Shown here: positions 4,361 to 60,609 of the stretch, piece by piece
Layout of the letters: every line of letters starts with the position of its first letter
Numbering within the stretch: the stretch's first letter is position 1
NCBI GenBank assembly: GCA_028386065.3
Contig: JAKUCV010001701.1
Span: 1-64,000, forward strand
Direction of reading: 5' to 3'
Source: Turnera subulata
Taxonomy: Eukaryota > Streptophyta > Magnoliopsida > Malpighiales > Passifloraceae
DNA length: 64,000 nucleotides
The notes under the pieces: generated by a model
What the model saw: only the letters and a program-made list of their open reading frames with translations
What the model was told of the DNA's origin: nothing
The model's database searches: none
Program-made: the position numbers and the translations under genes

Positions 4361-4362
4361 AG

Positions 4363-5687
4363 TGAGAATCTGGAACTTTCTCACCTCGTGACAGAGAAAT
4401 CGATGGAGCCGCCACCCAAGTTTTATTAGAATGGAAAAATTCAGGAAAAACCAAAGATAACTCCTTTATGCCCACAAAGCGACCAAATTTGCGTTCCAAA
4501 GATACCGGACTCGGGGGTTCATCATGGATAGGAAGGTATGAGGCACCCCATCCATGCTGGGGCGAAATAATATGCTATTTAAACGAATACTTGTGCTTTG
4601 GTGCGAGTGTGCATGTGTGTAAACCAGATTTCCAGCTGCAAATAAACAACAATATATACATAAAAAATTGAAATTAAAAGAAAAAGAGAGGGGGAAAAGA
4701 AGATTGAGCTTGCGTCTCCACCACTAGAGACATCCTACGTACCCCGGTTGGGTTCAAAGCTCACGTAGTTCTGAGATTACAGACAACACTCAAGCAAACA
4801 TCTTAGTATCAACATATATCAGAGACAAAAATCACAGCAGCAGAGAGAAATCAAAGGGAAAGAGACTAAGTTACCACCAAGGGCGTGTTCTTCGTCGTTC
4901 TTCGTGTTGGAGGGTTGTGGATTGCTTCTACCCTCTTTCCGTTCCTTAGTTCCACCTTGATTGGCTCTGGAACTACTGCAGAGACAAAACTAAACAACAA
5001 AACACATGAAATCTGGCAGAGAAAAGTAAAGAAATTGAATTGAAAAGAAAATAGAAGAGTTTTCCCAAGCAAAGAGCTTAATGGCCAACCTCCCAAACTT
5101 GTGTTATGAGGGTTCTATTTATAGTGTTTAGGGTCTGAGGAGGCGTGGTTTTGATCCTATGGTTGAGAGGAAAAACTAAAAAAATTGCCAAACTGGAGCA
5201 CACGACCGCCATCTGGTGGCGGTCATGTCGTGATGACCGCCGCCGCCGGCCTGTCGGTTACTGTTCACGGCTTTTCCTATTTTGACCCAGTTTTCCTTAT
5301 TTTGACTCCAATTCGATTCTTGCACGCAAAGTATGGATTCTTGGACCAGAAAATCTCCCTATTCTTGAGAAAAACTCTATACTCTTTCCATGTAAACTCA
5401 ATTACTTAACCTTCACTCCAAGGATTAAGAATTATTCCTTTTTTATTCCATAAATTAGGCAAAAAAATAAACTAACTTAATTGGGCCTCTAATTTGAAGA
5501 AAATCAGAGACAAATAAGCTAGAAAATTCGTGTTAAGCCTGGGCCTAATTATAAGTATAGTCCACTGATTTATTTATTGGGTTCCTGAGCCAAATGAAAG
5601 ACCAAAAATTAATAAAATTAACCTTGGACTCAAAAACACAGTTATAATCCAATGTAATAAATGGGTGGCTAAATTTGGGTGTTCACA
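4363..5687 (-). mobile_element. 3' LTR of element B
   Basis: This 1325-bp LTR pairs with 15070-16406. On the element strand it starts TGTGAACACCCAAAT and ends ATTCTCA. TATA is at 5113-5124 (minus strand CTATAAATAGAAC). The GACCGCC/GGCGGTC block is at 5204-5250, including an 8-bp stem at 5204-5224. The CTACGT/ACGTAG dyad is at 4735-4768. No coding sequence is seen. Confidence 0.9.
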
Positions 5688-5712
5688 GATACCCTCGTTG
5701 ATGAGGGTCTAA
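5688..5712 (-). other. Polypurine tract of element B
   Basis: On the minus strand, the sequence CATCAACGAGGGTATC directly precedes the 3' LTR start TGTGAACA. The same site in element M reads CATCAACGAGGGGCATC. It is the expected primer site for plus-strand synthesis. Confidence 0.65.
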
Positions 5713-5861
5713 GAAAGGGTGAAACACTAGTCATTAGTTTACTTAAAGAGACGATTTCAACATTATGAAAGGGTGAAACACTAACCATTAGTTTACTTAA
5801 AGAGACGATGTCAATGTTATGAAAGGGTGAAGCCCTAACCATTAGTTTACATTCAAAGGGG
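5713..5861. repeat. 54-bp tandem repeat, about 2.8 copies
   Basis: Copies start at 5713, 5767 and 5821, each beginning gaaagggtgaa and containing ccattagtttac. A related array of slightly longer units is at 55655-55808 in element M. Confidence 0.85.
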
Positions 5862-5962
5862 ATTGAGACAAAAAGCTTGAGACTAAAGGTCGGGACTAAA
5901 GGGTTGAGACTAAAAGGTTGAGAGGGACTAAAGGTTGAGACTAAAGGTTGGGACTAAAGGTA
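5862..5962. repeat. Tandem repeat TTGAGACTAAAGG, about 8 units
   Basis: Imperfect 13-15-bp units (ttgagactaaagg, ttgggactaaagg) follow the 54-bp array. The homologous array in element M (55810-56078) has about 19 units, so copy number differs between relatives. Confidence 0.9.
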
Positions 5963-6290: not shown

Positions 6291-6533
6291 GAGACAAGAT
6301 AACGAACAGTGGCTGGAAGGCGGTGCTGGCGGTCATGTGATGGTTGCCTCCTAGAGGCTTGGCCGCCAGCTGGCGGCGGTCATGACTCTCAGTTCCGATT
6401 CCTACTCGGTTTTGGAGTCTAATTCTTGATGAGAGACGGGTTTAGCCGACTTTTAACATCTATGAAAGGAACCAGAGACCTATGGAGAGGTGCATAAACA
6501 TTTGAGAGCAGAGGATTGAGTACTCTAAACACC
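6291..6533 (+). promoter_or_regulatory. LTR-like promoter region upstream of the antisense gene
   Basis: Two GGCGGTCATG decamers (6319-6328 and 6374-6383) lie in GC-rich inverted repeats (ggccgccagctggcgg, 6360-6375). They are followed by ccgattcctactcggttttgg, which resembles sequence beside the same block in the LTRs of A and C. The coding sequence starts 150 bp downstream. tgcataaaca (6491-6500) is a weak TATA candidate. The similarity suggests a captured or co-evolved U3-like promoter; promoter activity is inferred. Confidence 0.5.
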
Positions 6534-7802
6534 ATGGGTGACAATTTTCATGCTAGAGTGCAAGCTTGGATGAAGAGTATTTCCAAAGCCATCCAATATG
6601 ATTTCCTGGCTCTAAAGAGGCTATTCAATCTGAGGATTGTGCAAGTCCAACCAGAGTTATTAAGGGCCGCAGTGACGTTTTGGGATAGAGAGAATCATGT
6701 GTTTCGCTTTGGAAGCGATATGATGGAGCTCTGCCCGACAGTGGAAGAGTTCGATGCTCTCCGTGGAGTAACGACAAGTGACACCGAAAATCAGCTCACC
6801 AGGGAGATAAGGAACAGGAAAATTATTGCTGCGTCGTACAATGCCCCTTATGCAAGGAGTGTTTGCCCCTACTTATCAATATCCAAGGATTGGTGGGACG
6901 CTCTCTTGATGGACAAAGATTATATCGACTTGGGACCATTGATCTCTTTGTATCATGTAGATGGAGACGAGACACTTGGAAGCAACTGGAGAGAGAAGAG
7001 CAAACGGGTCCTATCAATTGTCATGATGAATGAGTTCTTGCTAAAGACGCGTCATGGCATGGGTCACGTTATTCTTGGAGAATACGTCGAACAGCTATAC
7101 AAAGGAAATAGCATTGTACCACTAGTAGTTGGCAAAACCCTTAATGCGCTAGACGCCCTTGCGGATGACTTGAATTGTCCAATTGGCGGTTCTCCATTGC
7201 TACTGCAAATGTGGCGGTGTGAACATCTCAAGATCATTGAATGACCGGTATCATTGAAGTACCTGTCAGCGAGCTATTCAACAAGGTGTCGACTCCAGAA
7301 CTTTGTGACTATGAGAGAGTGGGTCACCTATATGCATCATCTGACTTCCAATGATATAATGTGGCATTGTGTTTGGCTGAAGGTTATACGCATGGCGAGA
7401 GACACATTCGGCAATGAAGTAGTGCTACTACCCAGTATCAAGCAGTTTACCTATTACAACACCACGCGGTTTATGGGACAAATTGGTCAAGCTCAACCTG
7501 TTCCTTGTATGATCACCCCTCCTATCGAAGGGACTATGGATGGTAAACTCGTGGGGATTATTTTTAGTAATTGGACTCTCTTGACTTGGATTGGCGTAGG
7601 AACGCGTGCGTTGGAGCCTCCTATTCCACGGAATAAGGAGTGGCTAAGGGACACAACTAAGCCATTCGAGAAATTGCTGCGCGCGAGACGAAAGAAGATC
7701 ATGGATAGTCCTAAGCCATCTAGAGCTGAGTCTGTGGGACATACTGAGTCAGAGGAAGAAGATAATGACAAGATTTGGAGGCATAAACGCCCTAGGCATT
7801 AG
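6534..7802 (+). pseudogene. Antisense accessory gene of element B, DUF7745-like protein, one in-frame stop
   Basis: This frame is on the strand opposite gag-pol, between pol and the 3' LTR. The likely start is ATG 6534 in a good plant context (aacaccATGggt). A single frame of 423 codons runs to TAG 7800-7802, broken only by a TGA at 7242-7244 that looks like a mutated CGA. Near the N terminus the pattern TFWDRENHVFRFGS...PTVEEFDALRG matches my recollection of the plant DUF7745 family found in many retrotransposon-linked proteins. The middle has GGSPLLLQMWRCEHL; the second half has W...L...I.W....L and VVLLPSIKQFTYYN. The C terminus (about residues 385-422) is charged, with SEEEDNDK and KRPRH, possibly nuclear. 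Extra antisense genes are known in Tat elements (maize Grande gene23, for example). The biochemical function is unknown. Confidence 0.75.
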
Positions 7803-8031: not shown

Positions 8032-11000
8032 CTACACATAGTATTTCTTGAGTTGATCCATTTTGACTGGGTCCTTGAACTCGTTGCTGTCTAGATCTCG
8101 GATTCTTGTTGCCCCTCCAAGAAGGATTTCCTTGATAATGTACGGTCCACACGAATTGATCTTGAATTTGCCCATAGGATCATGCACCGGTTGCCGTATC
8201 TCTTTGAGCACTAGGTCGCCTTCTTTCAGCCCTCGAGACTTAACTTTTTTGTTGAATGCATGCACCATACGCCTTTGATAACCTTGGACATGGTATAGAG
8301 CTTGCAAACACTTTTCATCGAGCAGTGTGAGTTGATCTAGGCGTTCTTGAACCCATTGTGTCTCAGGAATCATACTTTTGTGGGCCACCCTCTAAGATTG
8401 GACCTCAAGTTCAACGGGGAGCACAACCTCCATGCCATATAAAAGAGAGTACGGTGTAGCGCCAGTGGATGAACGGAAAGTGGTGCGATATCCCCTTAGT
8501 GCTAATGGTAGCTTTTCTGACCACTCTTGATGTGTAATAAGCATCTTTTTTATGATTGTCTTGAGGTTATTATTAGCAGCTTCCACATCTCCATTAGTTT
8601 GAGGTCAATAAGGCGACGACTTGTGATGCTAGATGGCGTAGAGGGCGCTTAACCTTTCCACATTGGCTGTGAAGTGAATACCATTGTCAGATATCAGCTC
8701 AAAAGGAACACCATATTGGCAGATGAGGTTGTTGTGGATGAATTTGGCGACTTTCTTGGCATTAAGGACGGTGAAGGACTCGGCTTCAACCCATTTGGTG
8801 AAATAGTCGATAGCCACTAGGATGTATTCGTGCCCGTTAGATGACTTAGGAGAGACCTTTCCGATCATATCAATACCCCATGTAGAGAATGGCCAAGGCG
8901 ACGACAGAGGCGTAAAAGGAGACGGTGGAAGATGTTGCGACTTGGCGTGCACTTGACATGTGTGGCAAGATCTAACATGTTTGGCACAATCAGCTTCCAT
9001 GGTAGACCAAAAGTATCCCAATCGTAGGATTTTTCGAGCTAGCATTTTTCCAACCATGTGTGGGCCTTGGTCTTCTCCACGCACCTTTTCCATAATTCGC
9101 TGAGCTTCATTGGTATCGACACAGAGTAAATGAACCCAACTGGCAAGTCTTTTGTACAACTTGCAACCGCATAGAATGTATCCGGTGGCGAGTTGTTTCA
9201 GAGTTTTGCTTTCTTTATTAGTTGCATGCTCAGGATAAGATCCATCATATAAGAGATTGTATATATCGGTGTACCAATGTTGCCCCACGGCATTTAGATT
9301 GCTCAAGGTGTAAGAGGTTCGATTTTTTTCGGCCACAGTGATACCCATAATTGCCTCTTGGTCGGTGTAAATGGCATGAATGAGATTCTTGAACCATGGC
9401 TTCGGCATTGTAGATTCTCGGTGGAAAGACGGCTCGACATTCTTTTGAATTCCAATAGGCAGGATGATGACATTCTTAGGCATGCCGATCATGGAGGCTA
9501 AGATGGCAAGTGCATTGGCGAATTGGTTATTTTTCCTGGGGACAGAGTAGAAAGCTATTTCCTCGAATGTAGCGGCTAGCCTTTGTAGATATTCATGATA
9601 AGGCATAAGCTTGTCTTCTTTGATCTTCCATTCACCCATGACTTGTGAAATTACCAGAGCAGAGTCACCATATACTCGGATTCGCCGTATACCAAGGTTA
9701 AGCGCAGTTTCGAGCCCAATAGTACATGCTTCATATTTGGCTATATTGTTCGTGGCTTCAAACTCTAGCTTGCAAGACAGAGGATAAGTGACTTTGTCGG
9801 GTGAAATGAGGATAATACCGGCGCCGAAACTGCTTCCGTTTGCCGCACCGTCGAAGTACATCTCCCATATTGGGATGGTGATTGTCAAGATACCTTCATC
9901 GGGGAATTGAGCCTCGAATCTTTCGTCATGGATCACCGGTTGAGAGGCCAAAAAATCAGAAATGGCGCTTCCTTTAATAGCCTTTTGGGACACAAATCGG
10001 ATGTCGAATTGAGATAAAATTGCGACCCAGCGAGCCGTTTTACTACTTGGCACCGGTTTCTCTAGGAGGTATTTAATAGGATCTATTCGGGAGATGAGCA
10101 GCACCTCATGTGTCACAAAGTAATGTCTTAATTTTCGGCAAACCCATGTTAGTACGACACATGTCTTCTCAATCATGTTGTACTTGGCTTCATAATCAGT
10201 CAACTTCTTGCTCAAGTAGTAGATAGCATTCTCGATGCGAGAGTCAGGCAAATATTGCGCGAGCATTGCACCCATGGCATTGTCAGTCACAGTGAGATAT
10301 AGAAGAAGTGGTTGACCCGATCTAGGCAGTTGTAAGACTGGTGGAGTGAATAGGTACTCTTTTATTCGATCGAAGGCATGTTGGCAGTCATCATTCCATT
10401 CGGGTGATACCCCTTTCTTCAGGAGTCGGTGAATAGGCGTGCAAATACTGGATAATTGTGCAATGAATCTACTAATGTATTGTACACGGCCGAGGAAGCT
10501 TCTAATCTCCGTCTCGGTTCTTGGAATTGGAATCTCTTGAATTGCCTTGATCTTGCTGGGGTCGACCTCGATTCCTCTTTCACTGACCATGAAACCGTGT
10601 AGCTTACCTGCCTTTAAGCCGAAGACACATTTTTGCGGAATAATCCTCATGCCAAATTTCCTACATCTCTCAAAGAATCGCCGTGGATTGGGCATGTGTG
10701 ACTCATTGGTTTGTGACTTAACGATCATGTCATCGACGTATACTTCCACTATGTCATGCATCATGCCGTGAGTAAGAGTAGTGGCCAGTCGCTGGTAAGT
10801 GGTGCCAGTATTAATGAGTCCAAAGGGCATTACCTTGTAGCAGAAAGTACCCCATTCCGTGCGGAAAGCCGTCTTATGCCTATCCACGGGTGCCATTAGT
10901 ACTTGGTTGTACCCAGAGAATCCATCCATGAATGATAAAAGTGTGTGACCAGCAGTAGCGTCAACTAGTAGATCGATATGTGGCAATGGAAACTCATCCT

Positions 11001-12315
11001 TAGGACATGCTTTGTTCAAATCTCGATAATCGAGACACATGCGGACCTTACCATCCTTTTTTAGCACAGGGACGATATTGGCTAACCATTCAGGGTTGTC
11101 TATCACTTCTAGGAATCCGGCTTGGAGTTGCTTTTCCACTTCCTCTTTTACCTTGAGTGCCCATTGTGGTTGGAGGCGGCGCGCCTTTTGCTTGACAGGT
11201 TTGGCACTCGGAAAAGTCAGGATATGGTGTTGGGAGATTTCTGGATCGATACCGGGCATATCTTTGTAGGACCATGCAAAAACGTCCACATATTCTCGGA
11301 TCAAGGCAGGGAGTTCTTCTTTAATACTATCGGGTAATGTAGCGCTCATTTTGGTGACTTTAGGTTCAGTTTTGGTTCCCAAGTTATTCTCAATTGATTC
11401 ACCCTCATTAGATTCAGGTAGAGTGGGTGTTTCATGGACTTTATTTAGTTCATCATCATTATGCACATCATCCATGCAAACAACATTATCATCACAAACA
11501 CCAATGTAAGGGAATGTAAGCTTCATATTATTCTTTGAAAAATGCAAAACATCATTATCCTCGAAAGTGTTAGATGACTTCAATTGAAAATCGGGAGGGC
11601 GACATGGTTGCTCCTCTTTATTATCCAAAGAAAACGCGGACTTAGACTCAGGCTCGAACTCGTCTACACCACTAGATGGCTTGCTCCACTCCCATTGCTT
11701 CAATGGTCCTAGAATAGGGGTAATCATGCTCCTCTCATGCGTGACTCCATACTCCAAGCGCATATTTCCAAATAAATCTCCGAGGCCAAAATCTTCGCAT
11801 TCGCCATCTTGAGTATGTATGACCTTATCAAGCCTACAATCAAAGAATATCTCAAAACCGGGTAGTAGAGACCTAATGATGGGTGAGTACCAAGGTTCGG
11901 GAAAGCCACAATAGGGGAAATCATCACCTTCCTTCACAAATTGTCCATTTAGAGTCTTGAAGTAGGGATCCATTTCGAAGTCCAAAGTTCGGTTCTCCTT
12001 CTTGGCGCGGGCTCGCTCCCTATTTCTAGCTTCCATTCTCTTCATGTCCTCGGGTGTAGGTTGGTTTCCCAAGCCAAAGGGTGCGGTGATGGTTGGAGTC
12101 AGTGGAGGCTCAAGAATCCCTTGTTGGTGGCGTCCAAGCCCCATGAAAGGTAAGAAGTCCATCTTCTTCATGATGCCCATGATCCTTGTGTTGCTAAACG
12201 GGTCATAGTATAGAGGAAAGTTCTCTTGATGCTCCAATCCCCAAGTTAGAGTGTTGACCTCTTCGAATACAAAGCCAGAAAGGAAGATCTCTTTATCCTC
12301 GTCTAGTTCATGCAC
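8032..12315 (-). pseudogene. pol: Pol region of element B: RT, RNase H, second RNase H, integrase
   Basis: One long frame of 1228 codons (8629-12315) continues in the same frame to 8032 through stops at 8629-8631, 8605-8607 and 8392-8394. Approximate residues, in order: protease-RT linker 1-340; RT 380-560 with the active site YVDD at 526-529 (10729-10740) and PFGL upstream; first RNase H 600-720, where the usual acidic motif is altered to TVTDNAMG; second (archaeal-like) RNase H from about 815 with MYFDGAANG, the Tat-clade hallmark; integrase zinc region with CHTC; and the catalytic core with WGIDMIG and LISDNGIHF. The third catalytic acid falls after the stops, in GDVEAANNN. The integrase C-terminal part ends at DQLKKYYV. 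Transcription is convergent with the accessory gene. At least three nonsense mutations make it inactive. Confidence 0.9.
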
Positions 12316-14343
12316 TTACTTGGCAGGTAGGTCCAATGCCCCTCCTCGGATAGTCACAATGCCACCATTGTGTGGGAATTTGAGCAATTGATGCAAGGTA
12401 GATGGTACGGCTTTAGCTTGATGCAACTAAGGTCTTCCAAGTAGTAGATTGAAGCTCGATGCGATATCAAGGGCTTAAAACACGATAAGGAAGGCTACCG
12501 GGCCGAAATTGACTTCAAGGGTAATGGTACCAAGGACTTCTCTCTTTGCATTATCATAAGCACAGACGGTTTGCCTTGAAGGAGTGAAGTCATCCAATCC
12601 TAACCCAAGGACACTTGCAACTTTTAAGGGACACACATTAAGGGCCAATTCGTTATCGATTAGGACCATAGGGACTTGATTTCCTTTGACATGCACCGTG
12701 ATGTAGAGTGCATCCATGTGCTTGCCTTTGCTTGATATTAGGTCCTTATCAGAAAAGGTGATAGCAATTTCGTTGCTTGTGATGGCCATAATTTCTCCCA
12801 AATCATTCGGTGTAGTGTCAATGGGTACTTGTGTGTTTCCCAAAAGTTGTAGCATTTTCTCCCTATGTGGTCGTGAAGTCATGAGCAATCCCCATATGGT
12901 GATGTTTGCTTGAGTCTTCTTCAATTGCTTCAAGAGTGGATCCTCCTCGGGTTCATTAGGGACTTTGGGTGTCATAATGGGATTGTCAGCTTCAAGGTCA
13001 ATTGGCTTGGCAACATGCCCGAACCGAGTGATGGCGTCCACATCCTCTTCTTTGAGGTTCACGAAGTCATTCAATTCGATGAGCATCATACACTCTAATT
13101 TCTCCATGGGACGGATAAGTTCAGAAGCATCCAAGAGTCCTTCGTCAAAGATGGCACTAATGGTATTGTGTGGAGGCAAAGGATTTGTCTTGGTGTCGGC
13201 TTTGTTCGAGAAACGAGCTTCCCCTGGTCAATCAAGTCTTGCACCACATGGCGTAGTCGAATGCAATCATCGGTCTTGCGCCTATAGACTTGGTGGAACT
13301 CACAATGCTTACTCTGATCCAGATTGGGACTTGGATCGGTTGGCGGTGCTAACGGTGTGATGGCATTTTGTGCCATGCATAACTTTATAACAGTGCAAAG
13401 TGGCATAGACAATCGAGTGAATTGCCTTTTTGTCTCACCAAGTTGAATTGGCGCATTGACCTCCACGTTATTCACATCCACCCATCTCTTGTTGTTGCTT
13501 GTCCCAAAATTCTTTCTTTGAAAAGAGTTATCTTGAGGAGTCTTGTTCTTACCGGATGCAATGGCATCTTCCAATTGAGTTCCCGTGCCAATTAGGGCCT
13601 TGAAATAGCATAATAGATGCTCACCATGCGATCATAGTAGATTGGTTGCAAGTTCTTGATTACCATTTGGACTTGATCTTCTTCGGATGGACGCTTCACC
13701 GTTGGGGATACCTTTTGATGAACTCAGAAAATGTCTCTTGAGCTTGTTGCTTGGTAGTTTCGAGATCTCTTTTGGTGACATCAACGGTAGTGTTATACTT
13801 GTAGTGCTCAACGAACTCCTTGCAAATGTCCTCCCATTTGGAAACACAGTCGTTGTCCAATGACATGAACCAAGATAAGGCCGCCCCGCCTAGGGAGCGT
13901 TGGAAAAGTTGCGCCATTAAATCAGAACCAATCCCCATAGGTAAGAGAGTGCGGACATAGATCATCAAGTGCGTATGTGGACAACCCGTTCCATCAAATT
14001 TGTCAAAGTCAGGCATCTTGAATTTGTCAGGAAACCGAGCCTCGGGTAAGAGAGCTAATCGATCAAGGTTATAGTCGTCCTCCTTCCGCTTTAGATCCTT
14101 GAGAATTCCATCAATCTTGTCAACCTTATCCTCTAGACGAGGTGCCGGAGCGTCCATGTCTTCATCAATCGTGATTGGCCGCTTACCATCGGCTTTGCTA
14201 GTGTTCTTCTCTGAGGATTGGGCGGTACCCTCATCACCCTTTGCTACCTTTAGTGCCTCGAGAAATTGGGCCATGTTAACACCCAGCAACTTCTCCATCA
14301 ACTTACCCACCACGGTCGGATCATTCACTTGGATAGTGTCGTC
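12316..14343 (-). pseudogene. gag: Gag-protease of element B (Tat)
   Basis: Gag N terminus (13696-14343) and protease (12319-13179) are in the pol frame, so gag-pol was one polyprotein. The middle (13095-13574) is displaced by frameshifts. Visible parts are: a Lys/Glu-rich N region; the capsid segment with KFKMPDFDKFDGTGCPHTHL and GAALSWFM; a zinc-knuckle region CEFHQVYRRKTDDC in which the usual GH is replaced by RR; and a protease with LIDNELALNV (the usual S or G next to N is E) and SSFNLLLGRP. Stops interrupt the protease at about 12475, 12427 and 12316-12318. No ATG is seen at the start: the frame opens after a TAG near 14355 and its first codons read DTISDDTIQ. Confidence 0.85.
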
Positions 14344-15049
14344 ACTAATGGTGTCCTAAGGATAAACGCACGCGTATAAAAAACTTTTCATTGCTTGTGA
14401 CACCACTCAAATGCACAGAGAAAAATACTTTTATTTGAAAATGAAAATAAAGAAAGATTTAGAGCCGAAGTTTTTATTTGAAAACATGAGATTTTAGGCA
14501 CAAAGACAATTAATTTTTTCTGATTTTTTTGTTTTTTTGGAAAATTAATTTTAGGAAAAATATAAATCGGCTCGTTAAATGGAAAACAATTTAAAAAGAA
14601 AAAAATTTTGAAAAAGAGACTCGACTAGGGTTTTGTTTTGAAAAGGTAGATATGAATGCACAATTAATTCGGATCCATGAAAGGCAGGCATAATCATACA
14701 ACATATTTCCACACAAGGCAAGTACCCCTAGGGTTTCGTTCGACTATATTCAAGGGTATAAGCTGGTTGGGGGCCAAGAAACTGCTTTTATGGGAGGTTC
14801 AACCTACTCACATATGACACAAGGATGCCGCGTGAGGTCGAAGGCCAAGGTTCCCAATCATCGCTCGCGGCGGGTAATGGACAAATCGCATGCCATATCA
14901 CCACGAATGATGGTATGTATGGGCAAGGACTCGTCGAGCCCCCTTAAGGTAGAAGTTAACACACAATCATAACACAAACATGCAAGTGACAAGTAACAAA
15001 GCACAAAACTCAAGCGAAAATTGCACATTATTTCTTAAACCCACGAATT
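14344..15049 (-). other. Untranslated leader of element B
   Basis: An A/T-rich low-complexity stretch (14440-14620) is followed upstream by the conserved leader block (14753-14945: tggttgggggcc, gccgcgtgaggtcgaaggcc, caatcatcgctcgcgg). Elements A, C and M share this block. No coding capacity is seen. Confidence 0.65.
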
Positions 15050-15065
15050 CCCAGTGGAGTCGCCA
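15050..15065 (-). other. Primer-binding site of element B, tRNA-Arg(ACG)
   Basis: The plus strand reads CCCAGTGGAGTCGCCA, identical to the last 16 bases of plant tRNA-Arg(ACG) including CCA. The site is four bases inside the 5' LTR. It fixes the element as minus-strand oriented. Confidence 0.9.
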
Positions 15066-15069
15066 GCCG

Positions 15070-16406
15070 TGAGAACCCGGAACTTTCTCACCTCGTGATA
15101 GAGAAATCGATGGATTCGCCACCCAAGTTTTATTAGAATGGAAAAACTCAGGAAAAACCAGAGATAACTCCTTTATGCCCACAAAGCGACCAGAATTGCG
15201 CTCCAAAGATACCGAACTCGGGGGTTCGTCATGGATAGGAAGGTATGAGGCACCCCATCCATGCCTGGGCGAAATAATATGAAATTTAAACGAATACTTG
15301 TGCTTTGGTGCGAGTGTGCATGTGTGTAAACCAGATTTCCAGCAGCAAATAAACAACAATAGATACATATAAAATCGAAATTAAAAGAAAAGGAGAGGGG
15401 AAGAAGAAGATTGTGCTTGCGTCTCCACCACTAGAGACATCCTACGTACCCCGGTTGGGTTCAAAGCTCATGTAGTTCTGAGATTACAGACAATACCCAA
15501 GCAAACAAGTCAGTATCAGCATATATCAGAGACAAAAATCGCAGCAGCAGAGAGAAATCAGAGGGAAAGAGACTAAGTTACCACAAGGGGTTGTTCTTTG
15601 TCGTTCTTCGCGTTGGAGGGTTGTAGATTGCTTCTACCCTCTTTTCGTTCCTTTGTTCCACCTTGATTGGCTCTGGAACTACTGCAGAGACAAAACTAAA
15701 TGACAAACCATGTGAAATCTGGCAGAGAAAAGTAAAAAAATTGAATTGAAAAGAAAATAGAAGAGTTTTCCCAAGCAAAGAGCTTAATGGCCAACCTCCC
15801 AAACTTGTGTTATGAGGGTTCTATTTATAGTGTTCAGGGTCTGAGGAGGCATGGTTTTGATCCTAGGGTCGAGATTAAACCCCTAAATCCAATCGCTGAG
15901 TTTAGAAATAAAAAAAAAGGAAACACTAAAAAAATTGCCGAAATTGGAACACACAACCGCCATCTGGTGGCGGTCATGTCGTGATGACCACCGGCATGAC
16001 CGCCGGCCTGTCGGTTACTGTTCACGGCTTTTCCTATTTTGACCCGGTTTTCCTTATTTTGACTCCAATTCGATTCTTGCGTGCAAAGTATGGATTCTAG
16101 GACCAGAAAATCTCCATATTCTTGAGGAAAACTCCATACTCTTTCCATGTAAACTCAATCACTTAACCTTCCCTCCAAAGATTAAGAATTATTCCTCTTT
16201 TATTCCATAAAATAGGCAAAAAAATAAACTAACTTAATTGGGCCTCTAATTTGATGAAAATCAGAGACAAATAAGCCACAAAATTCGTGCTAAGCCTGGG
16301 CCTAATTATAAGAATTGTCCACTGATTTATTTATTGGGTTCCTGAGCCAAATTAAAGAACAAAAATTAATAAAATTAACCTTGGGCTCTAAATTTGGGTG
16401 TTCACA
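15070..16406 (-). mobile_element. 5' LTR of element B
   Basis: This 1337-bp LTR pairs with 4363-5687. TATA on the minus strand is at 15821-15830. The GACCGCC/GGCGGTC block is at 15956-16010, upstream of TATA in element sense, and the CTACGT dyad is at 15441-15477. It ends at 16406 and is followed by GATAA, then the rest of A's 3' LTR. Confidence 0.9.
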
Positions 16407-16411
16407 GATAA

Positions 16412-17504
16412 TCAAGTAATGGAGTGATTCTGGGTTGATTAGGGGTTAATTACGCGGTAGGATCAAATCAGGGCAGAATTAGGGGGATTGGGGGTCCGAA
16501 AATGGAAAGAACGGGTGACACGCAGGGCAACTGGCGGTCCTCTTGCGATGACCGCCAGGTGCTGGCGGGCATCCACTCAAGACCGCCGACACTGGCAGTC
16601 AAGCAGTGGATGACCGCAGTCAGCGGCCATAATGTCCTCCCAGATTCGTCCAAATCTCCGATTTTTGTTTCTAATTTCGATCCTACGCAGTTTTGGACTA
16701 GATTTTCGGGCATATTCTTCACCATTAAATAGGTCCATGCCCCTAGGCTTCCCAGAGGACTATAAATAGAACCCCTCACACACATTTCAAAGGAACACAA
16801 ACTTTTCTCACATATACACCTATAAGCCTTGAGTGCTTGGAGAAACTCTACTTCTCCAAGCCTAGAAATACATTCTTTAGGCAGAAACTCTGGAGGAATT
16901 TCGTGAGAGGCTTTAGCAGTAGTCCTACAGGGAGAGGTCAAGAAGAGGATCAACCATAGAGCTTAGAAACGGCAAGAAGGTGGGTGTAGAACTCAACCCA
17001 TTGCAAGGAGCTAGAGGATGGCTACAAGAGGTAACACTAAACCCTCTTTTGATTGTTCTTTGTTGATTATATGCTGATGCTTTTGATGATGTAAGTGGCT
17101 GATTTGTTCCATGTTTAGAACTGCGTGGCTTTGACCCCGATCACTCGGGTACGTAGGTAGTCTCGGTCTTACAACGGGATGCAAGGCAAATCCTCTTCTT
17201 CTCCCCTTCTCTTTATTTTCCACATATGCAGACTTGCACCAGGCACAATTGCATTTTATAATTGCACATACTCTCGACCCAACACAGATGGGTGCCTAAC
17301 ACCTTCCCATCTGTGACGAACCCCCGATCCCATAACTTTGGTTCGCCATGACCATGTAGCCTAAAGGAGTCATATTAAGGTTTTTCTCAAGTTTTGTCCT
17401 TAATAAAACTTGGGTGACGACTCCAATGTTATAGGACTGACCCCAGGAAGAAGGTTAAAGGATTAGGTGAATAGGCCCAAGTGATTTTAGGTTGGGTATT
17501 CACA
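16412..17504 (+). mobile_element. 3' LTR of element A, second part
   Basis: It resumes A's 3' LTR after B. 16590-17504 aligns with 198-1105. The first 180 bases (16412-16590) are U3 absent from the truncated 5' copy and hold several degenerate ggcggtc/gaccgcc repeats. TATA is at 16760-16769 and the R hairpin at about 16835-16861. It ends gggtattcaca at 17504. Confidence 0.8.
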
Positions 17505-18689: not shown

Positions 18690-19840
18690 TCTTGACATGT
18701 ATTCAATCGAAAACTAGTACTAAAGGAGGTTGAATCACCGTCTAGTGTCAAGAGAAAAGTCATAGAGTTTTCTCTTAGCTTTCCAAAGACACCAAGAATG
18801 TAGCAATATGATGTCTGTAGCTCGAGATATTGCAATTTTCCTGAGACTGCACAGGGAAGAACACTGCTCCCGGGTTTGCACTTTTTTCTCCATCGATTTG
18901 CTCCAATTGGCCTCCTTCTTCTATTCCTTTTGCTCTCCTCTTGCTACTAGGTTATTGCTACTCCTCTCCACGAAATCTCACCAGAAAACTAGCTCCTAAA
19001 ACAGCTCCTAAACTCAAACAACTAGGGTTTCTCCAAGCACTCTAAACTTATAGGTGTGTAGAGAGTAATTCTAATGTGTGTCCCTCTAATATGTAATGGG
19101 AGTTCTATTTATTGTGTTTAGGGGGTAAGGGGTCGCCCTATTAATCTAAGGGTCGAGATTGAACCCCTAAATCTGACGGTTGTGGACTAAGATTGCGAAA
19201 AGAATGTTCTGGAAGGAACGACCGCCACAGCCCTGGCAGTCATTCCATGACGACCGCCAAGGGCCGGCGGTCATCCCTTCTTGCCCGCCGGTGGTGGCGG
19301 TCATGTCTCCATGTCCGCAACCGACTGCACAGTGTTTACTCTTTTCTTACTTTTTCTCCTCCAAGCCGATTCCTAGTTGGTTTCCACGCTACCTAGAGTA
19401 TTCCCTGACCCAGAAAACACGACAAACTTGTCTCCTACTCCATTATTTTTCCTCTTTAGCAACCCCACATCAAATTATTTCCTTTTTCAATTAAACCTTT
19501 ATAAAAACACAAAAGAGGCAAAATACATATTTAATTTCAAATTTCCATGAAAATTAGGATTAAAATCAACTGTAGGCCATGTGTTTAAATAGGCTGTTAT
19601 CTCTAGAGGACCATATTTTATCAACCCAAACCCAATATCTATCTCTAACCCAAAATCAATCCAATAATGAAGGGCCAAACATAAATAAAAGAATTAAGCA
19701 AATAAAATACCCTCATTCTACCATAATAAATCACAAACATATTCATGCCATCAATTAAATCATCTCATCAGTCAAAGACATAAACAAATTTATAATTTAA
19801 AATAACAGAATACAGCAGGGGTCAAAATTGGGAGTTCACA
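18690..19840 (-). mobile_element. 5' LTR of element C
   Basis: It ends on the plus strand with gggagttcaca at 19840, corresponding to gggtgttcaca in B and M. Internal similarity to the M LTR includes cttagctttcc and tgtagctcgagat. A TATA-like CACAATAAATAG lies at about 19106-19117 on the minus strand. A strong GACCGCC/GGCGGTC cluster is at 19218-19306. The left boundary is approximate. Confidence 0.65.
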
Positions 19841-21575: not shown

Positions 21576-24379
21576 AGTTGGCAACAAGTTGTTGAGCTTC
21601 ATGGATTCTTGATATAACTAGATTCACATTGCTGTAAAGGATGTCCATAAAACGGCCTTCCGTTGCCCAGGTGCAATTGGCACTTATGAATGGCTGATGA
21701 TGCCTTTTGGTTTGATAAATGCAGGTGCCACTTACCAGCGGGCAATAAACCTGATATTCCACGATTTGATTGGCCTTCTGCTTGAAGCCTACATCGATGA
21801 CATAGTGGTGAAGTCAAAAAAGAAGGGAGACCATCTTGAGCACCTCAGGCTGGTTTTTGCCAGAATGTGTGCCTACGAGTTGAAGTTAAATCCTCTTAAA
21901 TGTGCGTTTGGCGTTCGAGCTGGTAATTTCTTGTGATACCTCGTTCATTGGAGGGGTATTGAGCTGAATAAGAACAAAGCCAGGGCGATCTTACAGGCCA
22001 AACCACCATCCACTAAAATTTAGCTTCAGCGATTGCTCAGCCAAGTCAATTTTTTGAGGAGGTTCATCTCAATTCTTGTCAGGCGAATCAGCTCCTTTAG
22101 TCGCCTATTGCGTTTAAAGGAGGGAGGTGAGTTTATATGGAGTGATGTTGACCAGGCGGCTTTTGATGACTTGAAAAGGAACATGCAGACGGCTACGAGC
22201 AAGTCGTTCACCTAAGTCGTTCATTGACTGATGTGGAGCGCAGGTATACTCCCACAGAACGACTTTGTTTATCTTTATTTTGTGCCTGCACAAAACTTGA
22301 GTAGTACTTGCTGCTAACTACTATCCATGTTATTTGCCAGACTAATATAATTAAGTATATGTTATCTAGGCCAATCATGCGGAAAAGGATTGGTCGGTGG
22401 GTTCTGGTGCTTTCGGAAATTTCCTTGAAGTATGTTCCACATAAGGCTGTCAAGGGTCAGGCTTTTGCGGATTTCTTGGCAGATCGTCCCATAGAAGAAC
22501 CAGAGCCTTTACCGATTGTTGAGATAGTGCAGATGGCTGTAGAGCCTTGGTTACTCCATTATGATGGTTCAAAGACAAGAGACGGAGTTGGTGCAGGCAT
22601 TCACGCTAGTTCACCAGACGGATGCCAAACCCAAATGTCCTTCTTCCTGGACTTTCCTTGTTCCAATAACCAGGTAGACTACAAAGCATTAATTATTGGG
22701 ATGGAGGTTTTAGCCGAGTTAGGAGCGACTCTGGTGGATGACAGAGGAAATTCTATGTTGGTAACTTCTCAGTTTTTAGGTGAATACAAGTGTGAGAATC
22801 CTGTCCTTGCTAGGTACTATCAGAGGGTCAAGGAGTTATCCTGCCAATTCCTTGGGTTCGAGCTTACTTACTGCATGGACTCTAATTCCGATGCCAACAA
22901 ATTGGCACAACATGCCTCAGGTTACAGGGAAGCTTGGGAGAATTGTAGTCTGGTGGCAATAATCAGAAGAAGTTGTCTATCGGTCTCCCTTGATGATGGG
23001 ACGAAAGAGGCCTTGGATTCTCGAGGCCAACTCGCTTTGTTTGTTTCAAGTTCAAGATTGCCTGACTGGCAGAGGGAGATCACCGAATATTTGGTAGATC
23101 CGAACTTCACGGCTGATAAGAAAACAAGAAGAAGGGCCGTGGATTATGTCTTGCCTGCCAGAATTCTCTATAAGCGAGACCGATATGGTGTTCTGCTGAG
23201 ATGCCTTGATCCGAAGGAAGCACTCCTTTTCTTAGAAGAAATTCGTGAGGGCGTGTGGGGAGGCCATCAAGCTGACAGGAAGATCGCTTGGCAGGTCCGT
23301 ACTCAAGGCTATTTTTGGCCGGCATTGATCAAGAATTGTGAAGACTATACCAAGGGATGTGAGGAGCGTCAGCGGCATGCCTCTATCTGCCATTTCCCGA
23401 TGCAGGAGATTTCATCTGTGGTTAAGCCGTGGCCTTCCAAGGATGGGCAATTGATGCCATCGGAATGATCTATCCTCCCTTTTCTAAGGGTGCCAGTATA
23501 TTTTAGTGGCCACTGATTATTTTACCAAATGGCCGAAGGCGGCTGCTATGAAGACCGTTGATCAAGATACTGTGATGAAGTTTATCAAGAACCACATATA
23601 TATCCAGGTTCGGAGTCCCAGATACTATTACTACAGATCAGGCTAAGGCCTTCACGGGGGAAAGGATCGTCCATTTTGCAAGAGAGTATGGCTTCCCTTT
23701 CCTTTGCTCATCCCCATATTATGCACAGGCTAACGGTCAAGCAGAGGAAACCAAGAAAACCTTGATTATGAATATTAAGAAGGCAATCACAGAATCCAGC
23801 CCTAAAGCTTGGCATCTGATATTGAACGAAGTTTTCTGGGCCCAGAGGACAGTAGTGAAGAGCGCAACTGGCACCTTTCCATTTCGGTTGGTGTACGGTG
23901 TTGATGTTGTTCTTCCGGTAGAGGCAACCATTCCCTCCTTCAGAAGGATTTATCAGGATTGCTTGGGCTATAGTGAGTATGCGATAGCTATGGAAACAGA
24001 GATGGACAACATCATAGAAGAGCATTTGGAAGCTTTAGACCATTTTCTTGCCCAGAAAAATAAGGTAGAACGAGCCTACAACAAGAGTGTTCGTGAGCAG
24101 ATCTTCAAGGAAGGGAACCTCATGTGGAAGGTGGTACTGCCCATTGGTAAAAAATTCACCAAACCTGGCAAGTGGTCTCCCAATTGGGAGGGCCCTTTTT
24201 TCATTCATCAGTTGTTGCCAACGGGTGCATATATGTTAAGGAATATCGAAGGCAAAGTTCACGACAATTCCACTAACGACAAATTCCTCAAGAAGTACAA
24301 GTCCTCGCCCTGGCAAGCAATCAAGGATGAAGAATATTCCGACAACAGGCTTAATAGACGCAGTTGGTGGAAAGAGTAA
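21576..24379 (+). pseudogene. pol: Pol remnant of element I (Tat): RT to integrase
   Basis: The frame opens inside RT at LLSFMDS, where element N's LTR cuts it. It continues with the RT motifs MPFGLINAGATYQR and the active site YIDD (21790-21801). After several stops (about 21934, 22020, 22213) comes a long frame (22308-23468). It carries the end of the first RNase H (VLSEISLKYVPHKAVKGQA), a second RNase H with LLHYDGSKT, and an integrase zinc region where the second Cys of the CxxC pair is Arg (GCEERQ). The integrase core is frameshifted at 23469-23760 (DYFTKWPKA readable). The integrase C-terminal region is open at 23762-24379 and ends KKYKSSPWQ. It is inactive. It is a different Tat lineage from A, B and M, judged by its LTR and 3' repeats. 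Confidence 0.85.
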
Positions 24380-52092: not shown

Positions 52093-53649
52093 ATGCCCAA
52101 GACAAGACGCGGTGCTTCATCGAGTCCAATTCCTGAGACCAATCCGGAGATCGAGAGAACATTACACAAGCAACTACGTGCGAACAAGCGAAAGCAGAAG
52201 CAAGTCGTAGAGCCTGTGGAGTTTCTTCAAGACACTGAAATAGAAGCAGAAGCAGAAGTTGTAGCAGATAATTTTGAGACAGACATCATGGCAGAAGAAG
52301 GAAACAAGACATTGCATGACTACGCAACACCGGTTTCGTGTAGTCGAGCATTGCAAGGCCAGCAATCAATGCCAACAATTTCGAACTGAAGACAACACTC
52401 ATTCACATGGTGCAACAGGAACAATTTGGAGGCTTGGATAGTGAGGACCCGAATCAACATCTACAGACGTTTACGGAGATTTGTGATTTGATCAAGATCA
52501 ATGGGGCGACTGATGATGTAATTTGACTTCGATTATTCCCGTTTTTTTAGCAAGGCAAGGCTAAGAAGTGGTTGAAGTCAGGAGCAACTGGAACATACAA
52601 GACATGGGAGGAGCTTTCAAAGGCTTTTCTTGCCAAATATTATCCACCTAATAAAGCAGCACGTATCCGGAGCAAGATTACATCATTCACTCAATACGAT
52701 GGAGAAAGTTTTTGTGAAGCGTGGGAACGTTACAAGGATCTTATTCAAGGACGCCCACAACATGGATTACCCGAATGGCTTGTAGTTCAATCGTTCTTTA
52801 ATGGTTTAAATGAGCCTTTGCGCATGAGTTTGGACGCAGCTTCAGGAGGGGCTTTCACGGCGCAAGCACCCGATGTGGCATATCAGAAGATGGAGACGAT
52901 GGCGAGTAATAGTTACTAGAGCTCTTCACGATCAAACAACAATCGAGTAGTTGGAATTCTGGAAGTGGAGACAGTGACAATGCTTAATTCGAAGCTAGAT
53001 TCTTTGAGTCAGTAGGTGAAATCATGTGTTGCTGCTATTATGCTGAGTTTAATATGTGATAAATGTGCAGGTGTTGGACACAATTCAATGAATTGTCCAA
53101 CCGGAGACGACTTGACGGTTGAGCAGATGAACTACATTCATCAACACCAACAACAACGAGGACCCTACACCAACACATACAATCCAGAATGGAGGAATCA
53201 TCCTAATTTTTCATGGAGGGAGAGCAACCCGAACCAGGAAGGCAACTATCAAAGGAACGATTATGGGCAGAAGAGTTCAAGCATGCAAATTCCAAAGAAT
53301 CAAGACATGGATCTTACATCTATGATGAAAGCCATAATGGAGATTCAACGTATACAAATGGAGATGATGCAAGGATTCAACAATCGGATGGCGAATATGG
53401 AGACTCACTCGAAGACGCTTGAGACACAACTTGCACAGCAAGCAGAGGCGATCATGAGGACACTTGGAAACCTACTGAACAGCCCACAGTTAATCCGAGA
53501 GAGCAAGACAAGGCTATAGCACTTAAAAGCGGAAAGAAATTAGACAATCCCTATCAACCTAAAGAAGATGAAGCCGACACCATCATTAAGCAAGAAGAAG
53601 AAGATGAGCAACCGAAAGTAGAGAAGCAGTTACCTGAAAAGGGAGCACG
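52093..53649 (+). pseudogene. gag: Gag of Athila H, truncated
   Basis: It starts at ATG 52093 (MPKTRRGASSS), with an N-terminal basic/acidic region to about 52360. A frameshift leads into MVQQEQFGGLDSEDPNQHLQ. Two stops follow (about 52525 and 52548), then a clear Athila capsid segment at 52572-52919: GTYKTWEELSKAFLAKYYPP, GESFCEAWERYKDLI, LDAASGGAF. After a TAG the zinc knuckle CDKCAGVGHNSMNC appears at about 53057-53100. Gln/Asn-rich sequence follows, and another frameshift near 53500. The last frame (REQDKAIALKSGKKLDNP) is cut at 53649 by element M. Protease and pol are missing. Confidence 0.85.
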
Positions 53650-55480
53650 TGAGAACCCGGAATTTTCTCACCTCCGTGACAATCGATGGAGTCGCCACCC
53701 AAGTTTTATTACCGTGGAAAAACTCAGGAAAAACCAAAGAATAACTCCATATACCCACAAAGCAACCAGATTAGCAAACCAGAAACGCCAGACTCGGGGG
53801 TTCGTCATGAATAGGAAGGTATGAGGCACCCCATCCATGCTTGGGCGAAATAATATGCAATTTAAGCGAATACTTGTGTTTTAGTGCTTGTGTGCGAGTG
53901 TGTAAACCAGATTTACAACAGCATATAATCATCAAAACAGCATGCAAAGCAGAGAATTAAAAGAACAAAAGAGAAGAGAAAAGGTTAAAACATAATTTGG
54001 CTTGCGTCTCCGCCACTAGAGACATCCTACGTACCCTGGCGACCGGGTTCAAAGCTCACGTAGTTCTTAGATTGAAAACAAACACTCAAGCAAACATTTC
54101 AGCATCGCCATAGCATCAAATCAGCAGCAAACATGGCGATTTAGAATCAAATAGAGTTTAGAACACTTACCATGAGTTTCTGGACAGAAACTAGAGTCGA
54201 CTTGCACCTGCTATTAAGCGAGACAAACGATCGATTCAGCCTCCAAGCTCAGCATAACAGTCATAGATCTCCCTCTTAGCTTTCCATAGAGTCCAAGATC
54301 GCAGAAATCGGAGGTCTAGAACTCTAGATATGAATTAATTACCTGGACTGCACGCTGCAAGAGCCTCTACGCGAGTTCTTCACGTTCTTGACCTCGGGAT
54401 TGCGAGTGATTGCCCCTAAGCCCTTGAATTAGACTCCTTCTATGTAAAGACTAATAATAAAACACAACAAGAACAAAACCACGTGAGATCTCAGAGAGAA
54501 AAGCAATAGGAATTGAAGAATAAATCAAATCTAAAGAGTATCTCCAAGCTAATGCGCTTTAGGGTGTGTGTTGAGAGAAAATTCGATAAATTGAGTGCTT
54601 TACCACTACTCAACGTTGCCTCCCCTTCTCTATAAACCATAGGGACTAATATATAGTGTATAATTCGTCCATAGGTGGGTTTAAGACTCCTAGATCAGAC
54701 TGGAAGCAAAATCCTTGACTTGCTCACCAAGTTGGTGCTTTACCTGTTTTCTAACTTGTAATTTGCACGCCGATTTCCACCATGTAGACGACGAAATAAA
54801 ACTCTGTGCCCTGCTTAAAAGTTCTAGATAATTCTTCTATCTTTCTGACCATATAAAGAAATCCTAAAATGGAATTCTGTAGCTCGAGATATCGCAAAAC
54901 TAGTGGGCCTAGGTCGGTGATAGATTTCTGAACGGCTGGGCCAAATTTAATCAATTACTGCTCTTAATCTACTGGATCAAAAATTATGTAATTTATATCC
55001 AAGAAATCCCTATGAGTCTACTTTTGTCTCCAACTAGTTTCATGTCGATTGGACCGCGGAAGCTCCCGGAATCGTTAATTAAGTGGGTTGTGCCCGCTGC
55101 AGAGAAAGTTGCCAAAATAGGACCACTTAACCGACATGGCGCGGCGGTCGTCACGACATGACCGCTGTGTCATGGCGGTCTTCCAAGGATGTCCGCCCGG
55201 ACCTGGCGGTCGTTGCGAGAGGTCCGCTGGGTCCGGGTTACTGTTCACATTATTCCTATTTTGTCCAGTTTTTCTATGAATTCCGATTTTTGTGCGCAAA
55301 GTCAGGATTCTATTCCTTTTCCTTAATTCCATTGCTTACACTCTATTATTCCTCTTGTTTCCACAAAATTAGGTTTCTAAGGCAAATTAAAGTCCAAAAA
55401 TTAGTAAAATTAACCTTGGGCTCTAAAATACAGTAAAAACCAATAGAATAAAATTTGGTGGCGAAATTTGGGTGTTCACA
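53650..55480 (-). mobile_element. 3' LTR of element M (left)
   Basis: 1831 bp, plus-strand ends TGAGAACCCGGAATT and gggtgttcaca. A TATA-like CACTATATATTAG lies at 54645-54657 (minus). The GGCGGTC/GACCGC block is at 55141-55225 and the CTACGT/ACGTAG dyad at 54029-54063. About 105 bp (around 54075-54175) are absent from the right LTR. Confidence 0.85.
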
Positions 55481-55654
55481 GATGCCCCTCGTTGATGAGG
55501 GTCTAAGAATTTAGGCACGAAACAACGCAATTGAACACACAAATTTAGAAAAAAAATAATACACGTGGACGTGCTCTTGATTGTGATACCATGATGCCTG
55601 ACAATGCTTACTTGAGGTTTTTCCATTGGGGATGGAAGATTTCAGTGTTTAGAG
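55481..55654 (-). other. Polypurine tract and adjoining 3' sequence of M
   Basis: The minus-strand sequence CATCAACGAGGGGCATC abuts the 3' LTR start. It is followed by unique sequence. Confidence 0.6.
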
Positions 55655-56078
55655 AGGATGCTTGGATCCTAACTATTAACTTACTTTCTGAAACGATGAT
55701 TTCAACGTTATGAGAGGGAGAATCCCTAACCATTAGCTTACTTTTCCAAAAAGATGATTTCAACGTTATGAGAGGGAGATTCCCTAACCATTAGCATACT
55801 TTCTAAAGAGGTTGAGACAAAAAACTTGAGACTAAAGGGTTGAAACTAAAGGATTGAGACTAAAGGGTTGAGACTAAAGGTGTTGAGACTAAAAGGTTGT
55901 GACTAAAGGGTTAAAGCTAAAGGGTTGAGACTAAAAGGTTGAGTCTAAAGGGTTGAGACTAAAGGGTTGAGACTAAAGGTTGGGACTAAAGGTTGAGACT
56001 AAAAGGTTAATACTAAAGGTTGAGACTAAAGGTTGAGACTAAAAGGTTGAGGCTAAAGGTTTGAGACTAAAGGGGTTG
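55655..56078. repeat. Tandem arrays in the 3' region of M
   Basis: 55655-55808 holds about 2.5 copies of a roughly 60-bp unit (ccctaaccattag, gatgatttcaacgtt). 55810-56078 holds about 19 units of 13-15 bp (ttgagactaaaggg). The same two arrays, in the same order but shorter, are in element B (5713-5962). Confidence 0.92.
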
Positions 56079-59000: not shown

Positions 59001-59846
59001 TCAATACAAACGCTTAGTCGCGATGATTATCCCCATGTCAATCAAGTTCTGAATGGCGTGGCGCAAACGGATACAATCGTCAGTGATATGCCCATAGATT
59101 TGATGAAATTCACAGTACTTGTTTTGGTCAAGATTCGGGTTCGGATTGGTTGGTGGCTCCAAAGGTTTCAGCAACCCACTTTCTTTGCATATCTTGAATG
59201 CTTTTCCCCTTGACACATATAACAGAGGGAACTTCTCTTTTGCTAGAGGCACAATCTCTTTCTTTGATACTTTAAAATTGTGGGGTGGCTCTAACTTGAG
59301 AGATGGAAGTGCAGCATTGGCGGTGCAAGTCGGTTTGCCCCCAAGATTAGAGAAGAGTGTCGGTCGGTACAAATCACCCTTTTGAGCTTCATCCTCAAAT
59401 ACCTCTTCGGGCCTCTTGCATTTAGCGTCTTCCTTCTCGGATGGTGGCATCCTTGCATTTTCCTCCATTGGTGTGGCTACATTGGTATGCTCGAGTTTAA
59501 ACTCCTTAGTGTCTTGCCCCTCTACTGTGGCCATATCCCCCGTCAAGTCTTCTAGTTCACGCACCCGCTGTTCATTCACCTTGTGACATAGGAATTCTTG
59601 TTCCATTGGCTCCTTGGAGCATCCATCAATGATGCGCGACTTCTCATCGTCTTGTCTCCTCGGCTTAATCACCAAGTCATTCAGGTTCATGTTCGTGAGT
59701 GCAAATTCCAAAAGTTGCCTCTTGAAGGTTGACGAAAATTCCGAATGGATGGGTCCCTAAGCACCTAGCTCACTAGCCTTGGGCACATTCACAGTTTCGG
59801 TCAAAGTCTTCACCATCTCGTTCCAACTAAAGTACATGTCACCCAT
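59001..59846 (-). pseudogene. Atypical M-encoded protein with gag-type zinc knuckle, one in-frame stop
   Basis: The likely ATG is at 59846 (MGDMYFSWNEM, context accATGggt). The frame is open except for a TAG at 59757-59759, consistent with a mutated CAG, and ends at 59001: about 281 codons. The N-terminal half is charged (Glu/Lys-rich) with no Tat capsid motifs (no KFKMPD..., no GAALxWFM). The middle has LYVSRGKAFKICKESGLLKP, and the last 50 residues contain CEFHQIYGHITDDC, a C-x2-H-x4-H-x4-C knuckle like that at the end of Tat gag, followed by IRLRHAIQNLID. It looks like a novel N-terminal region joined to the gag zinc-binding end. It might bind element RNA; function is inferred. A decayed gag with a large internal replacement is the alternative. 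Confidence 0.65.
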
Positions 59847-60605: not shown

Positions 60606-60609
60606 TCTG

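Follow-up and report, generated by a model that had tools for sequence, protein, structure and literature searches.

An antisense DUF7745-type gene of Tat-type LTR retrotransposons in Turnera subulata and the site arrays common to its promoter and LTRs

What does a long reading frame that runs against gag and pol do for a retrotransposon, and what drives it? The question is raised by element B, a Tat-type Ty3/gypsy element of 12 kb on the minus strand of a 64,000-nt window of Turnera subulata contig JAKUCV010001701.1 (the window is the whole stretch analysed; all coordinates refer to it, and its copy of the gene is our reference copy). Between pol and the 3' long terminal repeat (LTR) of element B, on the strand opposite to gag-pol, lies a frame of 422 sense codons broken by one stop at codon 237, as a first-pass annotation of this DNA had described. 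That annotation also took the product to be DUF7745-like and the region upstream to be a U3-like promoter. Tat elements are already known to contain antisense open reading frames (ORFs), Ogre elements the plant mobile domain (PMD) and VANDAL transposons VANC; passages of PMC7264820, PMC11963269 and PMC8616336 treat the function of Tat antisense ORFs and of the PMD as an open question. We find that the gene is maintained by selection and that its promoter shares a phased decamer array with LTRs, and we propose that its product may work like VANC.

Selection on the antisense gene

We compared the frame in 41 copies, namely that of the window and 40 others of this genome. Of these, 20 were the next best among 40 listed DNA matches, and 20 came from 103 protein matches and were picked for full length and mostly for divergence. 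The median pairwise ratio of nonsynonymous to synonymous substitution rates (dN/dS, Nei-Gojobori) was 0.52 for pairs less than 6% apart, 0.48 at 6-9%, 0.19 at 9-15%, 0.13 at 15-20% and 0.14 at 20-40%; these and the following medians are descriptive only, the pairs sharing ancestry. In the two bins from 15 to 40% the values were 1.24-1.67 for the remaining plus frames, two in number, and 1.20-1.79 for two minus frames. The third minus frame gave 0.24-0.25, which we attribute to silent positions that share the same third positions.

Of the copies examined for a downstream integrase antisense to the gene, 15 of 16 divergent ones and 19 of 20 close ones had it. Integrase could be compared with the antisense gene in 33 of the 41 copies (left out were L020 and L053, with no match, L030 and L033, with short matches, and L049, L052, L055 and L056, with no downstream sequence), pairs being binned by the dS of the antisense gene. 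The antisense gene gave 0.134 and integrase 0.166 at dS 0.5-0.9 (104 pairs), 0.122 and 0.162 at dS above 0.9 (184 pairs), and 0.503 and 0.484 in close pairs (155). The antisense gene is under purifying selection, as the first-pass annotation had led us to expect, with a median dN/dS of 0.12-0.14 between divergent copies, slightly below that of integrase. Since the ratio is low in deep pairs and higher in close ones, the lineage that goes on transposing retains the gene, about as strictly as it does integrase, and inserted copies decay. The ATG is retained in 39 of 41 copies; 21 are free of insertions or deletions (indels) relative to the window copy and in five more the length of every indel is divisible by three. 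Altogether 38 copies, the window copy among them, carry a stop or an indel and three carry neither, and the stop at codon 237 recurs in six.

Site arrays in the antisense promoter and in LTRs

The decamer GGCGGTCATG, with at most one mismatch, was found upstream of the gene in all 41 copies (-132 to -242), and twice or more in 39. The two decamers already noticed ahead of the window gene are exact copies, at 6328 and 6375; at the same tolerance the window contains 15 matches against 1.54 expected, a number reached in none of 100 shuffles. Spacings between neighbouring forward sites were 31 bases (22 times), 52 (17), 20 (13), 21 (12), 30 (3), 83 and 41 (twice each), and 32, 42, 47, 46 and 19 (once each). 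Most of these spacings are helically phased, 73 of 76 deviating by no more than one base from a multiple of 10.4, and spacer lengths vary from subfamily to subfamily. Many copies have the module forward-4-reverse-7-forward (the numbers being spacer bases) with a degenerate reverse site, of which the window copy retains reverse-7-forward only. An alignment of 17 of the 41 promoters showed the array followed by a second conserved block and, in 15 of them, by a TATA box about 70 bases ahead of the ATG; the box is deleted in L044 and altered in the window copy.

The U3 of element B carries the module forward-4-reverse-7-forward in gag-pol sense, with TATAAATA downstream, and thus has it in common with the antisense promoters of other copies. 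LTR-side sequence was available for 37 of the 41 copies (all but L043, L052, L055 and L056), and 23 of these 37 have at least two clustered sites in the U3. The 14 copies without a cluster are L017 and L027, with one site; L042, L045, L046, L047 and L050, with a site-free U3; L037, L040 and L054, in which the stretch does not look like U3; and L023, L024, L029 and L031. At least one LTR site is present in 25 copies; in 20 of these TATAAA follows the reference site by 79-227 bases, in four it is missing and in one it occurs only at 901.

One antisense promoter aligned to the LTR of another copy over 106 bases with a score of 80 (460 shuffles reached at most 28), and promoters aligned to the LTR of their own copy with a median score of 38 when both were read in the same sense and of 46 in the opposite sense, again with shuffles at most 28. 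Such array alignments are uninformative on sense because the longer LTR arrays alternate forward and reverse sites. The block after the array showed a weak likeness to the element's own LTR (22 of 2000 permutations reached the score). When the second block (-150 to -85 of the ATG) was compared with the two LTRs of a further element, A, its medians over the 41 copies were 32.5 and 30.5 in the same sense and 18.0 and 17.0 in the opposite sense, with shuffle means of 18.1 and 18.5 and maxima of 35.5 and 32.5 (1025 shuffles for the first). The earlier claim of an LTR-like sequence of ccgattccta type therefore stands for the wider block, which resembles the element A LTR in the same sense; it does not stand for CCGATTCCTA alone, whose five window matches at up to one mismatch were not significant (13 of 100 shuffles reached five). 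Through the common module, the 106-base alignment and the element A block, the likeness to LTRs extends beyond single decamers, and at the level of sequence the interpretation as a U3-like promoter is supported. The likeness may be copied or convergent.

Other elements of the window carry the sites as well. Element A, inside which element B is apparently nested, has LTRs at 190-420 and 16533-16760 with decamer sites (212-237 and 16533-16618) and the second promoter block, and its left LTR has TATAAATA at 362. The stretch 19217-19400, with a decamer array (sites 19217-19318) and then an exact CCGATTCCTA, is probably the LTR of a degraded plus-strand element with RVT_3 and integrase matches at 22305-24379. 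In element E the sites are degenerate. An element related to B has LTRs at 53649-55482 and 60609-62332 with a degenerate site array, and a frame between them (59004-59756) had no Pfam match. Compared with the 19-kb region and with E, the block from -150 to -85 gave medians of 24.0 and 20.0, which were unconvincing.

Genome-wide, the forward-reverse dyad was found 563 times (on the two strands together, with palindromic spacers entering the count twice) versus 0 for the reversed pattern, forward-forward pairs 476 times versus 1, and reverse-forward pairs at 239 places versus 0; these places are not independent events because family members share ancestry. Among the first 100 forward-forward places listed the spacing was 30-31 in 93 and 21, 22, 40, 41 or 42 in seven, and among the first 50 reverse-forward places listed the gap was 6 in 44. 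The dyad followed by TATAAATA 105-135 bases later occurred 13 times versus 0, a small share of the 563. The matches listed in a literature search with the decamer strings were all unrelated by title.

The dyad was also observed ahead of distant relatives. Two further antisense genes, L014 and L015, encode proteins 33% and 35% identical to that of the window. Upstream of both, at a similar distance, lies a forward-4-reverse dyad, mismatched at 3 of 20 positions in L014 and at 2 of 20 in L015 (reached in either case by 0 of 1000 shuffles); L014 has TATAAA at -74 and L015 a variant only. Within the 1.3-1.5 kb downstream, the sole pol match, antisense, covers residues 1-160 (34-160 in L015), and the 0.9-1.1 kb between gene and pol match gave no further one. 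These elements look as though they had lost reverse transcriptase (RT) and integrase and kept the antisense gene. No dyad was found upstream of L009 and L010, DUF7745 frames without pol in reach.

The encoded protein and its carrier element

The window protein matched the Pfam family DUF7745 (PF24924) with 21.4 bits before the stop and with 25.5 or 25.3 bits when read through, below the 26-bit cut-off, which three other family copies passed (C7121 with 26.9, C6333 with 31.6 and C4153 with 39.2 bits). We found 21 protein relatives at E <= 0.001 and 24-34% identity (7995 candidates scored), those named coming from the plants Rhododendron, Vaccinium, Camellia and spinach. All 22 alignment members matched DUF7745 and 11 of them also the PMD (E <= 0.01), so that the family assignment of the first-pass annotation holds, with the window copy at its edge. 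In P0053 the two matches overlap and each exceeds its cut-off, a hint that DUF7745 and PMD belong to one superfamily. The window protein itself had no match to PMD (PF10536) at E <= 10 with HMMER filters on, to DUF1985 or DUF287 at E <= 10, or to TRP28 (PF04195) at E <= 10 before the stop and E <= 1 read through. A literature search on DUF7745 found no paper. Stronger DUF7745 matches, up to 177.6 bits, were seen in frames of another kind without pol in reach (L009-L013, in C541, C2766 and C1942 of G000).

The N-terminal 236 residues are predicted to have a fold like that of VANC21. The match emerged only on re-aligning Foldseek's own candidates; Foldseek against the pdb and viral sets gave no match at E <= 0.001, and PDB sequence searches gave none. 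A full-length model (mean pLDDT 43.9) was unusable alone. Residues 50-72 of the protein are conserved. VANC21 is presented in passages of PMC5735166 as a sequence-specific anti-silencing protein of Arabidopsis VANDAL transposons, and in passages of that paper and of PMC10398659 it binds a nine-base motif arrayed in the element's non-coding parts, causing loss of methylation. VANC21 and VANC6 share with the present system the N-terminal fold, by model, and arrays of short sites in non-coding parts, including upstream of genes (PMC5735166, in part). Here, however, the carrier is an LTR retrotransposon with LTRs, gag and pol and not a VANDAL MULE, the site sequence differs and is also found in LTRs, the DUF1985 and DUF287 domains ascribed to VANC in that source lack a sequence match, and binding and anti-silencing would apply by analogy only.

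Antisense genes between pol and the 3' LTR are also described for Retand-type elements (TRP28) and for maize Grande, whose gene23 is served by a promoter of its own and gives a nuclear product (passages of PMC7264820 and PMC11963269); TRP28 occurs in 97% of Retand clusters by the figures in PMC11963269, whereas the gene studied here has DUF7745 and no TRP28 match. Ogre-type gypsy elements, 57% of which carry PMD according to a passage of PMC6317226, are comparable through the DUF7745/PMD overlap in P0053. HBZ of HTLV-1 is likewise an antisense nuclear regulator of an LTR element (PMC11963269, in part), by analogy only, but its promoter sits within the 3' LTR (a passage of PMC7264820). The PMD proteins MAIN and MAIL1 belong to the host and silence transposable elements (TEs); the DOWN motif of their targets, given in part of PMC9899485 as CATGCAGTTT, differs in sequence from the decamer.

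Element B has the extra RNase H of Tat elements (RVT_3, 826-937) between RNase H (668-770) and integrase (1095-1124), the domain order reported for flowering-plant Tat elements in a passage of PMC6317226. The first-pass annotation spoke of several stops in pol; one pol frame, however, is open over 1228 codons and ends within the integrase core match. At residues 47-70 of the same frame there is a weak G-patch match (15.1 bits, cut-off 22). Tandem repeats adjoin the 3' LTRs of element B (5710-5961) and of the related element (55668-56078), and the stretch 15049-15065 of element B looks Ogre-like, Ogre elements being set apart within Tat by a tRNA-Arg primer binding site and by RT phylogeny.

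Table 1. Positions of the antisense gene, its promoter and the parts of element B in the window
Feature	Position	Strand	Basis
3' LTR of element B	4362-5687	-	93-94% identity to its repeat partner 15069-16392; TGTGAACACCC used to set the upper end in both LTRs
Forward-4-reverse-7-forward module, 3' LTR U3 of B	5201-5241	-	TATAAATA after module at 5123-5116
Site array upstream of antisense gene	6319-6384	+	forward 6319 (2 mismatches), 6328, 6375; degenerate reverse 6358
Second conserved promoter block (CCGATTCCTA... type)	6395-6420	+	17-copy alignment; resembles LTR of element A
TATA box position	6461-6468	+	altered in window copy; intact in 15/17 aligned copies
Antisense gene, DUF7745-like	6534-7802	+	422 sense codons and stop; in-frame stop at codon 237
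Region with VANC21-like predicted structure (9lnj_A)	6534-7241	+	structure-model comparison
DUF7745 match, residues 29-86	6618-6791	+	Pfam profile search
pol frame (RT, RNase H, second RNase H RVT_3, integrase)	8629-12315	-	open frame and Pfam matches
gag part	13696-14355	-	Retrotrans_gag 39 bits, cut-off 24.1
5' LTR of element B	15069-16406	-	repeat pair, 93-94% identical; upper end from TGTGAACACCC in both LTRs
Site array, 5' LTR U3 of B	15969-16004	-	decamer search

Proposed function of the antisense gene

We propose that this Tat-type LTR retrotransposon family carries the antisense gene as a functional accessory gene. Its own promoter (site array, second block and TATA box) would drive a PMD/DUF7745-type protein that would most likely enter the nucleus and bind the helically phased GGCGGTCATG arrays in this promoter and in LTR U3s, and binding would keep the two promoters active or clear of silencing marks; site-bearing elements without the gene could be served in trans. 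From the VANC21-like predicted fold and the site layout we infer that the protein would most likely act as VANC21 does, activating and not repressing. We give the proposal as a whole about an even chance. A 2021 review (PMC8616336) contains the suggestion that PMD proteins encoded by TEs may serve to counteract silencing; among the matches listed in our literature search no paper demonstrated this, and none was by title on VANC-like systems in LTR elements. Two observations speak against the proposal: we detected no signal of CpG protection, and five copies have a site-free U3.

The main rival is a host transcription factor that binds the arrays, the LTRs and the antisense promoter sharing a need for it, while the antisense protein has another task, such as nuclear import, integration or a decoy of PMD-type silencing proteins. 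Such a factor would fit the sites in LTRs of other window elements (A, the 19-kb region and, degenerate, E) and the five site-free U3s, which uncouple LTR from gene; we also take GCCGCC/GGCGG within the decamer site to be GC-box-like. However, the upstream array persists in relatives of only 33-35% protein identity and is missing from two DUF7745 frames that lie outside such a setting, and the predicted fold is that of a transposon protein that binds DNA at sites laid out in the same manner. We regard the host factor as possible but on the unlikely side.

It is distinctly improbable that the protein binds the arrays and represses, giving negative feedback on copy number in the manner of host MAIN and MAIL1. 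TE silencing needs these two proteins according to passages of PMC7156037 and PMC5418596, and sites upstream of both TATA boxes fit either sign; the closest fold, VANC21, nevertheless counteracts silencing (PMC5735166, in part), and self-repression would be harder to square with the spread of the gene in all sampled subfamilies. That the antisense RNA alone matters, through double-stranded RNA or interference, or that the frame is the remnant of a host gene that the element captured, is very improbable: antisense transcripts are discussed as regulators in part of PMC7264820 and 38 of 41 frames are damaged, but the selection data contradict it, with a dN/dS slightly below that of integrase in deep comparisons, and the ATG and the frame are widely retained.

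As far as our searches go, two things are new: a DUF7745 antisense protein with a predicted fold like that of VANC, and the phased array common to LTRs and the antisense promoter. More tentatively, PMD, DUF7745 and VANC might form one superfamily of transposon-encoded sequence-specific DNA-binding proteins. Its antisense member in LTR retrotransposons would then be an activator that counters silencing and recognises one phased decamer array both in LTRs and in the promoter of its own gene, and MAIN and MAIL1 would be tamed members. The proposal put forward here is concrete in that it specifies a fold, a ten-base site, a spacing and target promoters. If it is true, sequence-specific anti-silencing also serves LTR retrotransposons and not VANDAL DNA transposons alone, and this would help explain why plant silencing proteins share the domain.
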